This document shows positions 3,972 to 49,779 of a DNA stretch of 64,000 bases, piece by piece. The stretch's first letter is position 1. Each line of letters opens with the position of its first letter. The notes under the pieces were generated by a model. It saw only the letters and a program-made list of their open reading frames with translations. It did not search any database and was not told the origin of the DNA. The position numbers and the translations under genes were made by a program. This DNA comes from Caprimulgus europaeus (taxonomy: Eukaryota > Chordata > Aves > Caprimulgiformes > Caprimulgidae). The stretch lies in the NCBI GenBank assembly GCA_907165065.1, contig OU015551.1, positions 62,001-126,000 on the forward strand. The letters run 5' to 3'.

Positions 3972-22365
<18,394 letters not shown>

Positions 22366-22394
22366 GGTCCCGGTAGCGGCGCCGGTGCCGAGGG

Positions 22395-22500
22395 CGCGGG
22401 GGGCGCTCGCTGCCGCCGCCGCCGCCGCCGCCCCTCTCGACTAGCGGGCGGCCATCTTGCTTCAGCACCGGGGACAGCTCCTGACGTCACCCCACCGCCC
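22395..22500 (-). promoter_or_regulatory. UNC13A: UNC13A core promoter with CRE, YY1 site and 5'-UTR CGG repeat
   Basis: A full palindromic CRE, TGACGTCA, lies at 22482-22489, and AAGATGGCCGCC, a YY1-type element, at 22447-22458 on the minus strand. YY1 sites often mark TATA-less start sites, so transcription probably begins around 22440-22460. A short CGG run (plus-strand GCC at 22412-22432) lies in the expected 5' UTR. If the start is upstream of the YY1 site, a 4-codon upstream ORF (MAAR) would be included. The start site is inferred. Confidence 0.65.
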
Positions 22501-23625: not shown

Positions 23626-24464
23626 TGGTAGCACAGGCAGGGCCACCCATGGTGAGCAGCAGCGAGGCCCAGGGAGCCAGGCTGGGAGCAGCACGGCTGC
23701 CAGCTCCCTCTCTCCTCCCCAGGGCCAGGGCCTCAGGCATGGGCAGGGGGCGATGAGGGAACTCCCTGGGAGGTGATGTGAGGGGCTGCAGAGGCAGACA
23801 GAGCCTTGCCTGCCAGAGAAACAGAGGCACAAAGAGCTGGGCTTTGCACTGATGGATCCATGATGAGGCAGAGGAGACAAGGCTGACCTGGGATGCCGAG
23901 GCTGTCCTGCTGCAGGAGCCCTCAGCTGGAACAGCTGACTCAGCCCTATCCCCTTCCCCACCACCAGAGCCAGCCCATGCCAGGGTGGGTGCCAACACCT
24001 CTCATGGCAGCCAGCACTGCAGCTTCCTGCCCTTGTCCCCTCTGCAGGGAGCTCACCCCCCTTCTGCCTCCTGTTGGCACATAAAAAGCACTTCCAGACT
24101 CCAGGAAAGTTGAGGTGGTGCCCAGGACGATAGACCATCTCTGCTAAACTGGGCTGCCTGCATGGTACCCCCTCAGCCCTGGCAGCATCCACTTCCCACA
24201 GTGACCCCTCCCATGACCTCTGTGCTGGTAGAGCTGCAGGACCCTGCAGGAGGGGCAGCCCCCCCCCAGATCCCGCCAGGGCCCTTCTCCACAGCCAGGG
24301 ATGTGCCAGGCCCTTCCCAACTCCAACAAGGTCTCTCCAGTCTCTGATGTATTTTTGGGTGCTGTCTTGTGGCGTCGCCTCCCTGCTTCAGCCAGCACTG
24401 CAGCCCCAGAGCTCTGCTCAGAGCAGGACACTTCTCCTCCGCTCACAGGCAGCCCATCACCCAC

Positions 24465-24585: not shown

Positions 24586-26637
24586 CACTTTAAAACCATC
24601 ATTTCTGAGACAAACAGCAATTCTGAAACAGGAAGATTTTTCCTCATTCAGCACAGTCCATCTGTCCCCACCTACACAAGTGGGCCTGCACCCACTGCTG
24701 CCCAATGCCACCTGCAGCACCCTTGCCCCAAAGCGTCTCCCTTCCAGCCCTGGCACCCAAAGCTGAACTGCTCCCATGGTTCACGCTTGAGTTTATTCTC
24801 TGCCCCAAGCCCTCATTTGGATGAAAACAAGTCTTATCAGAAGAAGTAATGTTCATTAAAATCTCCTGAGTTTTCCCAAAAAAAGATCAAAAATAAGGAT
24901 TAAAAAATTGTATTAAAAAAAAAGTAATCTCCAGGCCTTGAAATTAGTTATTTCCAGGAGCTGAACTCCTGCAACCTGCATCTCATGCTGTTTCCCTGCC
25001 TATGCAGCTATTTCCCCCATACCCAAATCGTTCAGTGCTGTGTCCATAGCAGCAGCCAAGTCCCCCAACACAGGCAGTGCCCAGTGCTGGCAGACCCCAG
25101 CCACCAGGACACTCCCATCCCCAAAATCTTCTTGTCTAAATATCCCCAATTGTCATCAAATCCCCATCTCAACATAAAACCAGCTTCTCGTGACCCCTGT
25201 GCCTTCAAATCCAAAAAACTCCAAACCTCCTCCATCCTCCCAGCAAAACCCTGCGTCTCACCTGTCTGCTACCAGCACCACCGATGGTCACTGGGCTCCA
25301 GGGGTGCCCTGGGGAGCTGCTGCATCTTCTGGCAGAGCCGTGGAGAGGAGCCTGGAGGAGCCAGGCTCTGCAAGCATGTCTGGGCAATGAGGCAGGACTG
25401 GAAAAGCAGCAGGCAGCAGGCAAGAAGGTGGGCAGGGGGCAAGGGGCAAGGCAGGGTGCCCAGCAGAGACTGGAGTTTGTCCCAGTGGGTAGCACTGGGA
25501 AGGACGTGGCTGCAGCTGAGGATAACATAACCACAACCAGTGATTCAATCACATGCAGAGGAGGTGACCAGCCCATGACCCCTAGACCCCAACTCAAATT
25601 GTAATTACTGGGAGGACAGATGCTAAATCCAGATAAATTGATGGTGACATGGACAACTGACAGCCCTGAGTGCTCGCTGAAGGTTGAGGCTCCCCACAGC
25701 CGAGCCCAAAGTCCACAGATCCCTGGGTGGGGAGCAGGGGACAGGTTGGTTGGGGGTCAGGGGGATGGCGGGGGGGGCGCAGGCATGACCCCAGCTGGGA
25801 TCTCTGTAGCAAACATGCCACCAGTGGGACCCAAGGGACATCACCTCACCCCCCAGGAGCCTCTGACATCCTCAGAGCCATGTCATGCTGGGAACAAGCC
25901 AGGGCAACAGGGCCAGGGCTCCCAGGACGGGTCCTGCCATTGCTTTTTCCCAGTAACCAGATCCTGCCACCGCAGTGGGAGCAGAGTGGTCCTGCTGGTC
26001 CCCAGCCCCCCCAATCCCTCAGGTGAGACTTCCACATGCCCTGTGTCATCCTGGAGTTTCTGCAGACGTGAGAGCACGAGGGGAGTGGAGCCCCTCTGGG
26101 CTGAGCACGCTGCGCGTGGTGCACTGTTGGGAGAACACGTGTGGGCAGCACTGGGAGGGGTGGCATGGGGGTCGCCAGCCACTCAGAGACCTGTCTATGT
26201 GTCTGTCTGGTTTTAAGGGTCCCTGGCACAGAGGCTTGTGAGTTGGCAGTGGTACCTGCAGCAGTCCCTTCCCTGGGCAGACAAAGCCAAAGTAACCCCC
26301 AAAGCCTCGGAGATTCCGTGCATCCCTTTGCCTTCCCACCCCCAGGGTCCTTCCATCCCTACAATGTGGGTGCTGTCCCACCAGCATGCCCGGCTCATGC
26401 CCAGCTGGACACTGATACAGCCTCTACCGTGCAGTGACCACCCATGAGCCCAGCTGAGAACAGCCAGCACGACTCCCCCGCGGGCGGAAAGCTGCTGGAC
26501 GGAGATTATTCCTCACCTCCATTCAGCTGCTCTTCCCCTTGGGAGTGGCTGTGGGTGCTTTTTGGGGGAAGAAGGGTCTAGGATGGCCACAGGAGCAGGG
26601 TGTCACGCTGGGCACCTCCTGGAGTAGCTGGGTGGGA

Positions 26638-26730
26638 ATGGAGGTGTTGGGCACGGCAGCAGCACCGTCAGCTGAGGGCTCAGAGAAGTGGCAGCTGTGC
26701 TACAACATGAAGACGAAGATGTGGTGGATG
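26638..26730 (+). CDS. NFIC: NFIC distal alternative first coding exon (KWQLCY...WWM)
   Basis: A 93-nt coding exon from an ATG in strong context (G at -3, G at +4) to WWM, followed by donor GTGAGC, ending in phase 0. The 31-residue peptide ends AEGSEKWQLCYNMKTKMWWM. NFIA has a known alternative N-terminus ending in KWQLCYDISARTWWM, joined directly to DEFHPF of exon 2; the match in sequence, position and phase is clear. The reading frame is also open further upstream, with an in-frame ATG at 26539, so the start choice is not certain. Assignment to NFIC rather than a separate gene rests on the NFIC exon 1 lying 21.6 kb downstream on the same strand. Confidence 0.82.
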
Positions 26731-27654
26731 GTGAGCGGGGTGGCCAGGATGGGGAGTCAGGGTTGGGTCTAGGCTACTTCATTTTGGAGGGGGTAGGCCA
26801 ATCACAGGGCAAAAGTGGGACTTTGGGCCAAGGATGTGGGGGTCGTGCCGCAGCCCTGGCTGGGAGTGAGGGGGAGGAGGGTTGGGGTGCAACCTGCTCA
26901 CTGATGTTTGGTTGGTTGGGTGGTTTCCCTGCATCAGGGGTTTGTTTTTCTCTTTCTTCTTGCTGACCTTGGCCTTGCCCTGGGTCCCGGCCGGGCCTGG
27001 AGCTATGCTGGGTTGTCCTTGCCCAAGCTCACCCCACGTGCTCTGCTTCTGTGAATGTTTTTTGGAGAAAACCTTGCTGCTGGCAGGGAAGAGCATCTCC
27101 TACTTGGCCATGAATGTCTCTGTTGGCTTCTCAGCCTTACCCAGCCTCTGACAGCCCCTGTCCTTGGGACAGTGACCACAAGAGGACCTGGGTGTCTGTC
27201 CATCCCCCAGCATCTGCCCTGGCTCAAGGCAGGGGCTGGGAATTACCTTAAGACAGACTTCAGGCTTGTTTGGGCACAGCCCCAGGCTGGTTTTGGGAAA
27301 GAGGAATCCCTCCATAGGTCAGCAGCAAGAGGCTGAGCCAGGGGCTGTAGGTCCTTGGGGAGCAGCCAAGGTTTCTGCTCAGGCGTTTGCAGCAGCTCCC
27401 AAGCACCCTCTTTGCAAGGGACCCTATAGCTCTGCCAGGCTGGGATTTCTGGGACAGGCTGAGTGGATTCCTGCCAGAAAGCACCAACCACTGCCGTTGT
27501 GGCAGCTCAGACTCACGAGGGAAGCTGCAAGCAGCAGAGGGCACTCAGGCAGGGACAAACCCCTGGGACACTCGGGTGTCCCCATCCCTGCGCAGAGGTT
27601 GCACCTGGCATTGTACCAGTCCCAGCAGCTCTTGGGCACAGAGGGCAGGGACAC

Positions 27655-28545
27655 ATGATGCTGGTGACACAAAGCTGGGAGGAGTGGCTGACACAGCAGA
27701 GGGCTGTGCTGCCATCAGAGAGACCTGGAAAGGCTGGAGAGCTGGGCAGGGAAAAACTTAATGAAATATAATAAGGGCAAGTGTCGTGTGTTGCACCTGG
27801 GCAGGAACAGCCCCAGGTTCCAGTATAGGTTGGGAGATGATCTCCTAGAGAGCAGTGTAGGGGAAAGGGATGTGGGGGTCCTGGTGGACAGCAGGATGGC
27901 CATGAGCCAGCACTGTGCCCTTGTGGCCAGGAAGGCCAGTGGCATCCTGGGGGGCATTAGAAGGGCTGTGGTCAGTAGGTCCAGAGAGGTTCTCCTCCCC
28001 CTCTACTCTGCCCTGGTGAGGCCACATCTGGAATATTGTGTCGAGTTCTGGGCCCCACAGTTCAAGAAGGACAGGGAGCTGCTGGAGAGAGTCCAGCACA
28101 GAGCCACCAAGATGATGAAGGGAGTGGAGCATCTCCCCGATGAGGAAAGGCTGAGGGAGCTGGGGCTCTTGAGCTTGGAGAAGAGGAGGCTGAGGGGGGA
28201 CCTTATTGATGCTTATAAATATGTTAAGGGTGAGTGTCAGGGGGATGGAGCCAGGCTCTTCACAGTGATGTCCAATGATAGGACAAGGGGCAATGGGTGT
28301 GAGCTGGAACACAGGAGGTTCTGCTTGAACTTGAGAAGGAAATTCTTTCCTGTGAGAGTAACAGAGCGCTGGGACAGGCTGCCCAGGGAGGTTGTGGAGT
28401 CTCCTTCTCTGGAGACATTCAAGACCTGCCTGGATGCCTTCCTGTGTGAACTCATCCAGGTGTTCCTGCTCTGGCAGGGGGACTGGACTAGGTGATCTTT
28501 CGAGGTGCCTTCCAATCCCCAACATTCTGTGATTCTGCGATTCTG
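27655..28545 (+). mobile_element. CR1 LINE, 5'-truncated, ORF2 C-terminus intact over about 244 codons
   Basis: Starts within the reverse transcriptase ([10 protein letters not shown], from the F/YADD-TKLGG region). It continues as an open frame 27761-28495 with typical CR1 C-terminal text such as [40 protein letters not shown] and [20 protein letters not shown]. It ends in the 3' tail with ATTCTGTGATTCTGCGATTCTG (28525-28545). It is much better preserved than the copy at 1-3900, so probably a younger insertion, but it cannot transpose by itself. Confidence 0.95.
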
Positions 28546-30384: not shown

Positions 30385-30799
30385 GAGACGGCCATACAAG
30401 GAGGGGCTGAAGTCACTTGGTTTGTTCAGCCTGGAGGAGCCTGAGAGGAGATCTCATCATGGTCTAGAACTTCCTCCCCAGGGGAAGAGGAGGGGCAGGC
30501 GCTGAGCTCTCCTCTCTGGCCACCAACACCAGGAGCAGAGGCCATGGCAGGAAGATGTGGCAGGGGAGGGTGAGGTTGGCCATGAGGAAAAGGTTCTTGA
30601 GGCAGAGGGTGGTGGAGCACTGGCACAGGCTCCCCAGGGAGGTGCTGATGGCCCCAAGCCTGACAAGATTCCAGCAACATTTGGCCCTCAGGGCCATGGT
30701 GTGAATGTTGGGATTGTCCTGTGCAGGGACAGGAGTTGGACTTGATGATCCTTGTGGGTCCTTCCCACTCACAACATTCTATGATTCTTTGATTCTATG
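30385..30799 (+). mobile_element. CR1 LINE 3' fragment
   Basis: Recognisable CR1 3' text (GGGGCTGAAGTCACTTGG, TTCAGCCTGGAGGAG, GTTCTTGAGGCAGAGGGTGG) ending ACAACATTCTATGATTCT near 30799. Frames are decayed. The 5' boundary is approximate. Confidence 0.85.
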
Positions 30800-31175: not shown

Positions 31176-31269
31176 GTGTGAATGTTGGGACTGTCCTGTG
31201 CAGGGACAGGAGTTGGACTCGAAGATCCTGGTGGGTCCCTTCCAGCTCACAACATTCGATGATTCTAAG
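31176..31269 (+). mobile_element. Short CR1 3'-end fragment
   Basis: About 94 bp: GTGTGAATGTTGGGACTGTC, then GCAGGGACAGGAGTTGGACT and a tail ACAACATTCGATGATTCT. It closely matches the 3' end of the fragment at 30385-30799, so the two belong to the same or a close subfamily. Confidence 0.85.
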
Positions 31270-31779
31270 AAAAAGGTTTTTTTTCCCCCAGTTCCCAGGA
31301 CGATGCTGCTCCAGGTTTCCCCAGAGCCACCGGCCCCCACACTCGCCACTAGATGGACTCGCACTAGATGGCAGCAGAAGAACGCACATGGCCACGGCCA
31401 CGCTGAGCCCCGGCCGCGGAGCCGAGTTGAGCGGGGCTCCATGGCACGCGGGGGCCGCCGGCGGGGACAGCGCGGGCTGAGCCCAGGGACACCCCCGTGG
31501 CTCCAGCGGGACCGTAGGGTGGGGGGGTGTCAGGATTTAGGGGCCATCGTGGGCCCGAGGGCTGGGTGTGGGGTGCCTTTCGGGCGCTCGGGAGGCAAAG
31601 GTGGGACTCGGGGGGACATGGGGACCCTGGGCTGCTGGCACCCAGTGTGTCCTGGCACATTGTCACCTCCTCCGTGAGTGCCATGGCGCTGGAGGGTGGC
31701 CCCTCCCACCCCACTCCTCGCAGACGGGGTTGTGCAGGGGCTCGCAGCCTTGGAAACACGTGTGCCAATAGACCTGTAT

Positions 31780-44649: not shown

Positions 44650-47600
44650 CCCAAAGCACCCTTCCCCTCTCCCGGACCAAACCCGCTCCCAGGGCGCTGC
44701 CAACTTCCCGAGCGCGAGCGGGACCGGGGTAAACCCCCCCCCTCGCCTCGGGGCTGCAAAGCGGCATGTGGTTTTGAGAGGGGGGGGGGGGGGGGGGGGG
44801 GGGCAGCCAGCGGGGTTCTGCTTGGGGGGAGAAGGGGGTTCCGGGGGGGGGCACGAAGAGTACGGGGCGGTGAAGGTGCTGAGGGGGCACCAGGGAAATG
44901 GGGGGGCGGGGATGAAAGATGCCCCGGGGGGACCAGAGTCTGGGGGAGAGGCTGGGTGGCAGGGGTGGGGGGTGGCCTTGGGGAAGGGAGGGGGTGACGG
45001 GGAAACGTTCGTGGAAGAAAGATGAGGGGGGCCGCGGGGAGGGGGTTCCGTGGGCCGGGGATGGAGGTGAGCGGTGGATCTCCGCGGAGCGGGGCTGGTG
45101 GAGGGTGCGGAGCCGGGGGGTTGTGCGGGGCCAGGGACGCGGGGGATGCCCGCGGGAGGGGGCCAAGTCTACCCGCCGCGGTGCCCGGTGCAAGGGCGGG
45201 CGGCCGGGCCCGGCTCTGCCCGCGGCTCCTCCCCGCTCTGCGGTAGCTCTGCTCCGGGACCGGAGCCGCGCCCCCCCCGTCTCTCCCTCTCTCTTTCTCT
45301 CATCTCCCTCCTCCCCCCCCCTCGCGCCGAGCAGGGCCGGGGGGGCGGCCCCGCACCTCCCTCCGCAGCCCGCCGGGCCCGGGGGGGCCGCGCCGCAGCC
45401 CCCGCCACCTACCAGCACCACCCGGGGGTCGCCGTCGCGCTGCCGGAGGAGCGAGGTCGGAGCCTTCCTCCTCCTCCCTCCCCACCCCCGCACCGGGAGC
45501 GTCTCCTCCGCAGCGCCGCCGGTGCCCCGGGCGAGGGGAGGAGGCAGAGGAGGAGGCGGAGGCGGCGATGGGGCCGGGGCGCTGCGGACTGCGAGGAGGA
45601 GCTGTGCCCGGCCGGAGTTGGGCTGCGCTGGGGAGGGGTGGGGGGGTGCCAGTTTTGCTTTTCCATAGGCGCAGCCCGGCCCTCTCCCCGTTCCTTTTTG
45701 TTTGTTTGTTTGTTTGGGGTTTATTTTTCAATTTTTAAAAAATAGATTTTTTTTTTTCTTGCCTTCCAAAAATAACCACCGTCCCGTTCCCCACCCCGTT
45801 TCCCCCAGCCCCGCCACCCCCGCGGCACATGAGGCCGGGCTGGGCGCGGGCACCGCGCTGCTGCCGCCCCGCCGCCGCCTCCCGCAGCCGCCCCGGAACT
45901 CGCCGCCGGCGGCGGCCGGCCCGGCCCAGCCCGGCCCCCGAGGCGCTGAGGCAGGAGCATGGCCCACGGCAGCGAGATGGAGCCGGCCAGAGGGTGACCG
46001 CCCGCGGGGGACACTTTGCCGTTGCCGGTGGCATCGGGGGAGAGTTTTCTTCTTATTAGGGTTTTTAATTTCTTTTATTATTTTTGAGGAGCAACGTGTT
46101 TGGTTTTTTTATCCTCCTCCTTCGACTCGGTGGAAAACACACGTTTTAGAACAAAATACCAAAAAAGCCCACCCTCTTTGCTTTGCTTTTCGCAGCAACT
46201 TGGAAGCCCGTTAATTGCACTTGGCTATGGTAGGTCCCGTGACACTTTCATTTTCTCTTCTACTTCCCTCCCCCCCAGTGTGCGTTTGTCTGCGTGTGCA
46301 CCCACGAGCAAAAGTTGACTGCCGGGGAGGGGGCGGCGGGGCCGGCAGCGGAGTTTAATCCGGGGCGGGGGTGCCAGGGTGGTGACTCTCCTCCCTCCCG
46401 CGGTATAAGACGGGGGAGGCGGGGGCGGGAGCCGCCCGGCGGGGAGGTCGCGGCGCGGCGGGAGTGGGGGGGGGAGCCTCCGCAGCTGGCGGAGGGTTGG
46501 ATGGCGCTGAAAATGGCCGCTACAAAAGGGGCGGGGAGGTTGGCAGCCGTACCGACTTGAACTTGGAAGTGACGCCCGGGAGGGTCGCGCTCAAGTGCGG
46601 GGGGGGGGGGGGGGGGGGGAACAAAAAAAACCGTTTTTAAAAAACAATTCTCATCCTCGATGTAATAATAAAAACACCCCCCCGTCCCCGCCGTGCTGGG
46701 CTTTTCTCCTGCCGGGCCAGGGGGGGGAAGCAGCGCCGCGGCGCCCCCCCCCCACTAAGGGGAGGATGAAGGATGGACGGGGGGCGGGCCCGGCCGGCGA
46801 AGTTTGCGGGGAAGCGGGCTGGTACCGCCGCATCCCGCGGGAGCGGGGCTGCTTTTAACACAGGGAAAAGGGGTGGGGGGGCGGCGGAAGGTGATAAACC
46901 CCAACTGTCCCGGCGGGGGTCGTCCCCCGGGGGCTGGAGAAAGTGGAGAGTGAGAATTGTTGTGCGGAAGAAGGGCTGGCAGGGCACCTTCCGAAAATCA
47001 TCAAAAGCCTTTTTCTCCTGCGGGGGAAACGCGGCGGGACTGGAGCTGTGGCCCCGCGGCCCCCGTCCGCCTGCGGTTACACCGAGCCCAGCTGTGCGGG
47101 TCTGTGGGGAGGAGGGAGCGGGACTATCCCGCGGGGCTGGGACTCGCTTTCCTGGTCTGGAGCCGGGGATTCCCTTTGTTTCCCGGCCGTACTCTCGCCC
47201 TTGCCCGTTCGCTAATTAGCTTGATTAACGCCGCAGAATTGCCGGGTGGCCGGTGGTGGTTCTGGAGTGAGAACTCGCGGTTTGGAGTTTGATGGACGCG
47301 GGTCTCAGCTTTTTGAATTTCTGTCTTTGTGCGCTCGGGGCGGGAGGGGCGCGGCGCGGGACTCCCCCCCCCCCCCCCCCGGGGCCCCGGGGAAGAGCGT
47401 CGCGGTGTTGCCGACCGTTAAAATAAGGAGGGAGGGGGAACGGGGACGGGAGGAGGAATAAGCGTCTCTCCGCGGGAGATGCGGCGGGAAGGAGTGCGGG
47501 GCACCGGGGCTGGGTGCGGGGGGCACCCTCCCCTCCACCCCCGGTGTTCTGGTCTCCCGGTCTCCCGGGGCCGCTGCCCAGAAGTTGCCCATGAATCTGC

Positions 47601-48480
47601 AGATTTTTTTCTTTCTCCTCGCCGTATTGGCTCCGTTTATTTTAATAATCATAATAATAACCCAAAACAACACAAAACGGGCTCGCTCGCCCGGCGCTGC
47701 CCGGCCCGGTGGGCACGAGGGGGACTCGCCCCCCCGCTCGCCCCTGCCCCGCAGCGCCTCGGCCCTGCGAGCCAAAGGGGGTTCCTACATCTTTAAATGG
47801 GATGTAATATTTTGGGATGGGCTTTTTCATAACGTCACTTCATTCCTCGCTCCTTTTTTTTTCTTTTTTTTTTTTCATTTTCTCATTCTTTCTTTCCTCC
47901 CTCTCTCCACTGCCCGGGTCTTGGATGGAGCCGCTTCCCCTATAACTTCCCCGCTGCCCGGCCGCCCCTGCCTGCAGGCTGGGTGCAGACGCCCCTCCGG
48001 CGAAGATGAGCCTTTTGCCTCTTTAAAACGCTTTCGCTCCCCCCCCCCCTCAACAAACAACAACAAAAAAGCGCTTTATTTTCCAAGGAGGGAAAATTTT
48101 GCTTTTTTTTGTTTTTATTGAAGGGGGTGGAAGTTGGACCCTTTTTATTTCCTCCTCGACGCCCCCTCCCGCGGGGCCGCCCCCCCCTGCCCGGCTGCCC
48201 CCCCCCGGGCCCCGCAGAGCCGCTCCGGAGGAGAGAGAGAGAAAAAACGCCCGGACTGCTCCAGCCTCCGAAATGACTCAGTAACTTTTACGCCTCGAGT
48301 CTCAGCCCTGCAATTAGCCACTTTCCCAGCACGGCTCGGGATGTATTCGTCTCCTCTCTGCCTGACCCAGGTAACCGGCCCCTTCGCGTCGTCTCCCCCC
48401 CCTCCGTTCGCCCCCCCTTTGCCGCAACAGACTTTTACAGTTGCAATGCAAGGAAAAAAAAAAAAAAAAGCACCCCCCCC
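44650..48480 (+). promoter_or_regulatory. NFIC: NFIC proximal promoter CpG island and 5' UTR region
   Basis: Nearly 4 kb of CG-rich sequence with many CG dinucleotides, beginning abruptly where AT-rich sequence ends at about 44640 and finishing after exon 1. Homopolymer runs occur at 44780-44803 (24 G), 46599-46619 (21 G) and 47364-47380 (17 C). An AP-1-type TGACTCA lies at 48274-48280, 60 bp before the ATG. The transcription start was not located. Confidence 0.75.
48341..48370 (+). CDS. NFIC: NFIC proximal exon 1 (MYSSPLCLTQ)
   Basis: The ATG at 48341 encodes MYSSPLCLTQ and stops at the donor CAG|GTAACC in phase 0. This is the exact N-terminus of NFI-C; NFIA and NFIB have MYSPLCLTQ and MMYSPICLTQ instead. 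NFIC is a nuclear factor I protein that binds TTGGC(N5)GCCAA sites as a dimer and acts in gene activation, tooth-root and cell-differentiation programmes. The next exon would begin DEFHPFIEALLPHVRAF and encodes most of the DNA-binding domain; it was not found through 64000, so intron 1 runs off the window. The exon lies near the right end of a large CpG island. Confidence 0.93.
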
Positions 48481-49779
48481 CCCCCCGATAAAAATAACAG
48501 GGAAAAGACAGGTTGGGGCTGCCTTCCCCCTCCCCCTGCCTTTTTTACGGTTTTCTTTGGGTGTTTCTGGTGCTTTTTAGGGTTTTTCTGCCCCTGCTTT
48601 CACTTGGGGCACGGAGGAGGGGAGGTTGCGTTGTGGTTTGGGTTTTATTTATTTTTTTCGCTGCGCCTGGAGGTGGGTGGTGCGGGGAAGCCGCTGGCTT
48701 TAGGGCTGCAGGAGGACGTGGTTGGGTGCAGGGGGTCCCTGGTTGGGTTTGGGGGGGCTGGAGGGGGTTGGCACTTCTTGTTCTGCCTTGGCTGCGTCGC
48801 TTCTTGCATAGCATGAAACTCCCCCCCTGCCCCCCTCGGCCTCCACCACCTCGCACCAGCCAGCTGCACATGGTGGGGTGCAAAGAGGTGGGGTGGGACA
48901 CAGGCTTTTTATTCAAAATCCTCCAAGTTTGGGACAGTTTGCACGCAGCTGCGCCATGCTGCGCTAGCAGGCGAGAGAGTGGTGGGAGTGCTACATGGCG
49001 GGGTGGGAGTGCACCCCCTCAGTCTCTGGGGTGAGGGGTGATGCCAGCCTCAGTCTGCTTGTAGGGGTGTTGAGGGGCAGCCCTGTGCCATGTGCGTGGG
49101 GACGCTGGTGTCACTCCAGGCCACGCCGACGTGGCCTGGTGGCATGCAGCAGGGTGCCGTGCTAGGGCCCACGGTGCAGGCAAGGGGGGAAGTCTGCCTC
49201 CAACAATGGGTACAGCCCTGGGGTGGGCAACTTTGGGGACCCTCCCCTTGCCTGCACCACGACTGCTGCGGCTCTGGTTTTGCTCTGGCTTTATCGATCG
49301 CTGATATTTATTTAATTATTGAACAGGCAGCTCTCCCCTCACCCTGGCTCGTAACCTCTTCCCTGCTGGCAGCCGCTGCCTGCTCCCAATTCGGCCTCGT
49401 GTCGAACCCCGTGAGGGGCCTGTTCTGCTGGTGGGGGGGCTTCTGCTGGACCCCCATGCCCACACCAGGGATTCTCCTGACAGACCTCGTCCCTTGTGCC
49501 AGAGCTACAGGCTTAGCCTCAGCTGCCCCGTGGGGGTTTGGGGGTGTCCCCTCAGCAGCACCACAGCACTTGTGTTGTGCCGGCGGGCAGTGCAGGGTCC
49601 AGCCTCATCTCTGGCTCTCCCTGGGTGCGGTGCAGCATGTGAGGCTGGTGACGGCACAGGCATGGGCACCAACCGGGGCATGGGCATGGGCACGGGTGAG
49701 CAGCGCTGGGGCTGCTCAGATGACCCTGGGGATGGTGCTTCCCGTCGTGTGGTTGACTTGGCAAGGGTCACACCTCAGT

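Follow-up and report, generated by a model that had tools for sequence, protein, structure and literature searches.

Alternative N-termini in the NFI family

NFIA and NFIB use a distal alternative exon that encodes an N-terminus carrying the motifs KWQLCY and WWM. We take the NFIB exon to be the alternative first exon known for that gene. For NFIC, a human isoform begins MDEFHPF. Its initiator methionine must be supplied by an exon with a terminal ATG ahead of DEFHPF, a property shared with the bird exon described below; unlike the bird exon, however, the human form is not known to carry KWQLCY, and its first exon lies nearer to the usual one. More generally, each NFI gene encodes various splice isoforms, of which the canonical ones have the DNA-binding domain in common, as stated in one study (PMC11775196).

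Here we describe an exon in a 64,000-nucleotide stretch of the Caprimulgus europaeus genome (hereafter the window) that is very probably real, coding and ancient, and homologous to the distal exons of NFIA and NFIB, as judged from comparisons of sequence. Among the matches listed in our searches of the open-access literature, no description of such an exon in NFIC was recognised. These searches found no word starting with KWQLCY (the string inside a longer word would be missed) and no co-occurrence of "NFIC" with "alternative first exon" in that spelling. It is quite possible that automated annotations of bird NFIC already include the exon.

A probable distal coding exon of NFIC

The domain PF10524, which marks the start of the NFI DNA-binding region, was found above the cut-off in four genes, on contigs C33, C27, C11 and C37 (16 matches listed). 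The NFIC match lies at C27:126984, which is 984 bases beyond the end of the window. The usual first exons read MYSPYCLTQ (C33), MYSSPLCLTQ (C27) and MYSPLCLTQ (C11), and from these peptides we take the genes to be NFIX, NFIC and NFIA, respectively, with MYSSPLCLTQ presumed to be specific to NFIC. The gene on C37 is presumably NFIB, since the other three are accounted for and its DNA-binding exon is read as NFIB-type. The translation of the NFIC gene has RPECREDFVLSITGKK in common with the Nuclear factor 1 C-type chain 9xvd, and the A-type chain differs there. The best overall bit score was to an A-type chain (357.5 vs 354.4 for the C-type), and the presumed NFIX differs from the RPECREDFVLSITGKK stretch by one residue only. 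The gene is identified as NFIC by an NFI DNA-binding exon with NFIC-type residues together with the usual exon 1 MYSSPLCLTQ; the genome's remaining three NFI genes are located elsewhere.

In the usual NFIC exon 1, positions 48341 to 48370 of the plus strand are coding, and GTAACC follows. This exon lies in a CpG island (45001 to 48500; GC 0.56-0.78 and CpG observed/expected 0.76-0.96 in all seven 500-base windows). No match to the DEFHPF exon, which encodes the DNA-binding region, was found within the window; in NFIC this exon begins at window-coordinate 64987, about 1 kb beyond the window end, at a phase-0 acceptor (CCACAG/GATGAGTTC). A divergent neighbour on the minus strand has its start codon at 22363 to 22365 (MSLLCVGG...) and further exons, on the same strand, at 17377, 17036 and 16451. 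From UNC13A motifs, we take this gene to be UNC13A. Its start is also associated with a CpG island (21501 to 22500; CpG observed/expected 0.78 and 0.84 in two 500-base windows).

The distal exon lies between these two starts, on the plus strand. Its coding part runs from 26638 to 26730 and translates as MEVLGTAAAPSAEGSEKWQLCYNMKTKMWWM. The frame is open upstream as far as a stop at 26455, and the first ATG that it contains is the one at 26638. The exon finishes in a coding tail of the form KWQLCY-(6 residues)-WWM (26686 to 26730; KWQLCYNMKTKMWWM), the part that is conserved among the paralogs in both DNA identity and whole-genome matches. It is directly followed by a phase-0 splice donor (ATG/GTGAGC; GTGAGC at 26731 to 26736), with the NFIA and NFIB donors at the same place. 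This frame and donor agree with the preliminary description, which had also placed the exon 21.6 kb upstream of the usual exon 1 and 4.3 kb from the UNC13A start; the ATG at 48341 and a measured distance of 4.27 kb (from 22365) bear out both figures. The acceptor of the DEFHPF exon is likewise in phase 0, and a junction with the distal exon would keep the frame, as had been proposed.

The donor is good, yet not rare. When scored with donor weights, 22 of the 2933 plus-strand GT sites of the window, this one included, reach its score or better. Equal-scoring donors of the form ATG/GT also occur at 23649 and 60050; thus the donor alone is no evidence of an exon, and it is the preceding peptide that provides it.

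Homologous exons at NFIA and NFIB

The last 22 residues of the exon (26665 to 26730) were compared with the whole genome (1.18 Gb in 121 contigs), in a search that scores best candidates only. Three matches were listed: the site itself (E 1.2e-9), one at the NFIA locus (C11:4014619-4014678, minus strand, E 0.008) and one at the NFIB locus (C37:47666208-47666267, plus strand, E 0.017). Both non-self matches lie on the strand of the gene concerned and upstream of its NFI DEFHPF exon, by 109 kb in NFIA and 106 kb in NFIB. With the NFIA distal peptide as query, five matches were obtained, of which the top three were NFIA, NFIB (E 1.4e-12) and the NFIC exon (E 0.004); the other two had E-values of 0.5 and 2.6.

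The NFIA exon reads MKLADSIMAGKTSDGSIKWQLCYDISARTWWM and the NFIB exon MKVADSIMAGNASDSSIKWQLCYDMSARTWWM, with phase-0 donors ATG/GTGAGT and ATG/GTAAGT, so that all three distal exons finish in ATG ahead of a GT donor. The earlier claim that an NFIA alternative N-terminus ends in KWQLCYDISARTWWM is borne out by the NFIA locus of this genome, which encodes it. The three peptides align with one gap, and the first methionine, A8, S15, KWQLCY and WWM are invariant; in the 17 residues from the first methionine, only M1, A8, S15 and K17 are shared by all three paralogs. Like the NFIA exon (MKLADS...KWQLCYDISARTWWM), the NFIC exon has KWQLCY and WWM at equal spacing, a methionine at nearly the same place (one residue closer to KWQ), a phase-0 GTGAG donor, CpG-poor surroundings and, on the gene's own strand, a position 5' of both the usual exon 1 and DEFHPF. 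The exon order in NFIC (26686, 48341, 64987) is the same as in NFIA (4014663, 3911327 and 3905680, minus strand). The two differ in the middle six residues, in the N-terminal half, in the upstream flank, which is unalignable, and in the distance from the distal to the DEFHPF exon (38 kb in NFIC vs 109 kb in NFIA). The NFIB exon (MKVADS...KWQLCYDMSARTWWM), for which only the distal and DEFHPF exons of the gene were located, matches that of NFIC in peptide, phase and strand, with a GTAAGT donor and about 106 kb to DEFHPF. In the hexapeptide between KWQLCY and WWM, NFIC agrees with NFIA at none of the six positions and with NFIB at just one.

Since the peptide is short and searches with single sequences give E-values of only about 0.004 to 0.02 between NFIC and its paralogs, a chance resemblance has to be considered. 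We scored the window with a 15-residue table for which the distal exons of NFIA and NFIB in this genome were the sole source. The NFIC site reached 73, and the runner-up in the window 29. When the window was resampled 40 times with a first-order Markov model and both strands were scored, the top site averaged 31.1 (sd 4.1), with a maximum of 42. Moreover, the two other genome matches listed for the NFIC peptide both fall upstream of NFI genes in the correct orientation, and the DNA-level matches fall at the same exons. The resampling control and the whole-genome placement lead us to reject chance, whose probability we regard as negligible; the homology to an NFIA-type exon asserted in the preliminary description stands.

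No KWQLCY exon was found at NFIX by pattern and tblastn searches (best E 0.59) in 99,001 bases, 5,100 of which read N, reaching from exon 2 to a point some 91 kb beyond the usual NFIX exon 1 in the upstream direction; genome-wide, two single-protein queries found no fourth copy. Several weak tblastn and pattern hits at NFIX (C33, about 911-1010 kb) are paired about 5.6 or 13 kb apart, which suggests that the assembly has duplicated segments upstream of this gene. Among solved structures, the NFIC distal peptide had no match, and the NFIA distal query had only weak matches to unrelated molecules (best E 0.16).

Conservation of the coding tail

At the DNA level, the similarity of NFIC to its paralogs is limited to the coding tail and the donor, with unalignable flanks. 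In ungapped counts anchored at KWQ, the tail is identical at 33/45 bases between NFIC and NFIA, 33/45 between NFIC and NFIB, and 39/45 between NFIA and NFIB. For the N-terminal coding half, the corresponding counts are 19/48, 19/48 and 40/48, and for the intron 11/49, 12/49 and 19/49. Upstream of the coding part, NFIB has a flank in common with NFIA (72/99), unlike NFIC, which matches NFIA at 24/99 and NFIB at 25/99 bases; blastn likewise detected no likeness of NFIC to NFIA or NFIB in the upstream region and the surroundings of the start codon. We regard the shared upstream flank as peculiar to NFIA and NFIB and not as part of what defines the distal exon.

By blastn, NFIC and NFIA are 72.6% identical over 62 bases (26674 to 26735), a figure near that of their DNA-binding exons (75.0% over 543 bases). 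In narrower DNA comparisons the distal exon was the sole match listed each time (E 9e-6 for NFIA, 1.8e-4 for NFIB). When the window and the sequence that follows it were compared more widely with 129 kb of the NFIA locus (plus strand, E up to 0.1), the matches comprised the distal exon, the DNA-binding exon, repeat-like stretches at 28.3-31.3 kb and short matches with E 0.004 to 0.07. The distal exon had E 0.001 there and the best unrelated short match 0.004, so what matters in this comparison is that the match falls at the NFIA exon. The stretches at 28328-28541, 30585-30793 and 31195-31273 each have three or four counterparts upstream of NFIA, and look like copies of one interspersed repeat.

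Could the exon be a decaying relic, kept since the NFI duplications and no longer used in NFIC of this bird? The divergence of the middle hexapeptide and of the N-terminal half, together with the unconserved promoter region, would fit such a history, and the lack of a detected NFIX copy makes loss from a paralog appear possible. Still, KWQLCY, WWM, the open frame and a good donor persist between flanks that have no detectable similarity, and in neutral simulations with equal base changes about two thirds of the runs gained a stop within the 45-base tail. In the comparison of NFIC with NFIB, the twelve base differences of the tail cause 5 residue changes and no stop (neutral simulation P 0.012); for NFIC and NFIA the same simulation was not significant (P 0.061). 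Over these 15 codons only, pS (0.77 and 0.97) exceeds pN (0.19 and 0.17) for NFIC against its paralogs. Individually, these selection statistics are weak; more persuasive is that frame, motif and donor have survived with nothing alignable on either side. We consider a relic very unlikely.

Predicted promoter and start of a putative distal transcript

There is no CpG island at the NFIC distal exon, where CpG observed/expected is 0.32 and 0.23 in the two 500-base windows of 26001-27000. In this respect the three genes are alike, with values at the distal exons of 0.31 (NFIA), 0.36 (NFIB) and 0.29 (NFIC). NFIA and NFIB have about 155 bases in common upstream of KWQ, extending beyond the ATG and including ATTAGGTGTCTTATCT, a candidate promoter element of their distal transcripts. 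The block that these two genes share around the distal exon measures 240 bases at 79% identity, starting about 105 bases upstream of the distal ATGs. Within it, ATTAGGTGTCTTATCT lies about 34 bases upstream of the first ATG and contains a GATA-like CTTATC. In NFIC, neither CTTATC nor AGATAA is present on the plus strand of 26001-26700. By analogy with its paralogs, a promoter at the NFIC distal exon is likely, and the second promoter suggested in the preliminary description is plausible.

An exon that is real and coding need not be the first. A non-coding exon further upstream, perhaps from the CpG island at UNC13A, might splice into it, with no promoter just 5' of 26638. In favour of this arrangement is the CpG island about 4 kb upstream at the UNC13A start, set against the absence of one by the exon itself, along with acceptor-like sites ending at 26022, 26345 and 26526 and a 5' flank that is unconserved with NFIA and NFIB. 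Acceptor-like sites are, however, common by chance, the NFIA and NFIB distal exons are likewise CpG-poor, and the NFIA-NFIB conservation upstream of KWQ is what one would expect of a first exon that has a leader or promoter of its own. An upstream leader exon seems to us rather unlikely, though it is the alternative that we take most seriously.

Translation would start at 26638 in NFIC. In the distal exons of NFIA and NFIB, a second ATG (MAGK... and MAGN...), with A at -3 and G at +4, stands in a more favourable start context than the first; the distal protein of these two genes may therefore begin there.

Proposed function of the distal exon

We postulate that an ancestral NFI gene possessed an alternative 5' coding exon that was passed on to NFIC, NFIA and NFIB. 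An mRNA containing this exon would skip the usual exon 1 and join ...WWM/DEFHPF in phase 0, leaving the DNA-binding domain intact and replacing the ten residues MYSSPLCLTQ with about 31 residues that end in KWQLCY-(6 residues)-WWM. Going by the match to the NFIA and NFIB exons in sequence, reading frame and position, it is very likely that NFIC makes a protein with this alternative front end. The mRNA would most likely be driven by a distal, CpG-poor, tissue-restricted promoter, as we infer for NFIA and NFIB. Next to the DNA-binding domain, the conserved aromatic peptide probably alters partner binding or activity, and not the DNA sequence preference. Taken as a whole, an inherited NFI exon that gives NFIC an alternative front end, probably from a distal promoter, is an explanation in which we have considerable confidence.

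A more far-reaching version, which we regard as decidedly improbable, would have an undescribed bird NFIC promoter, divergent from neuronal UNC13A and about 4 kb away from it, drive a neuron-restricted KWQLCY...WWM form of NFIC. The mammalian MDEFHPF form would then be a remnant of the same exon after loss of the upstream frame.

Under the favoured explanation of an inherited alternative exon, the annotated 5' end of NFIC would shift by about 21.6 kb. Only if the exon is used would NFIC have a second promoter and most of the interval between UNC13A and NFIC be NFIC intron. The alternative NFI front end would then be an ancestral feature, of which this genome keeps a copy in three or more of its four NFI genes, and bird NFIC transcripts could start beside UNC13A. 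Experiments with the MYSSPLCLTQ form alone would, if this is true, miss part of the NFIC output.
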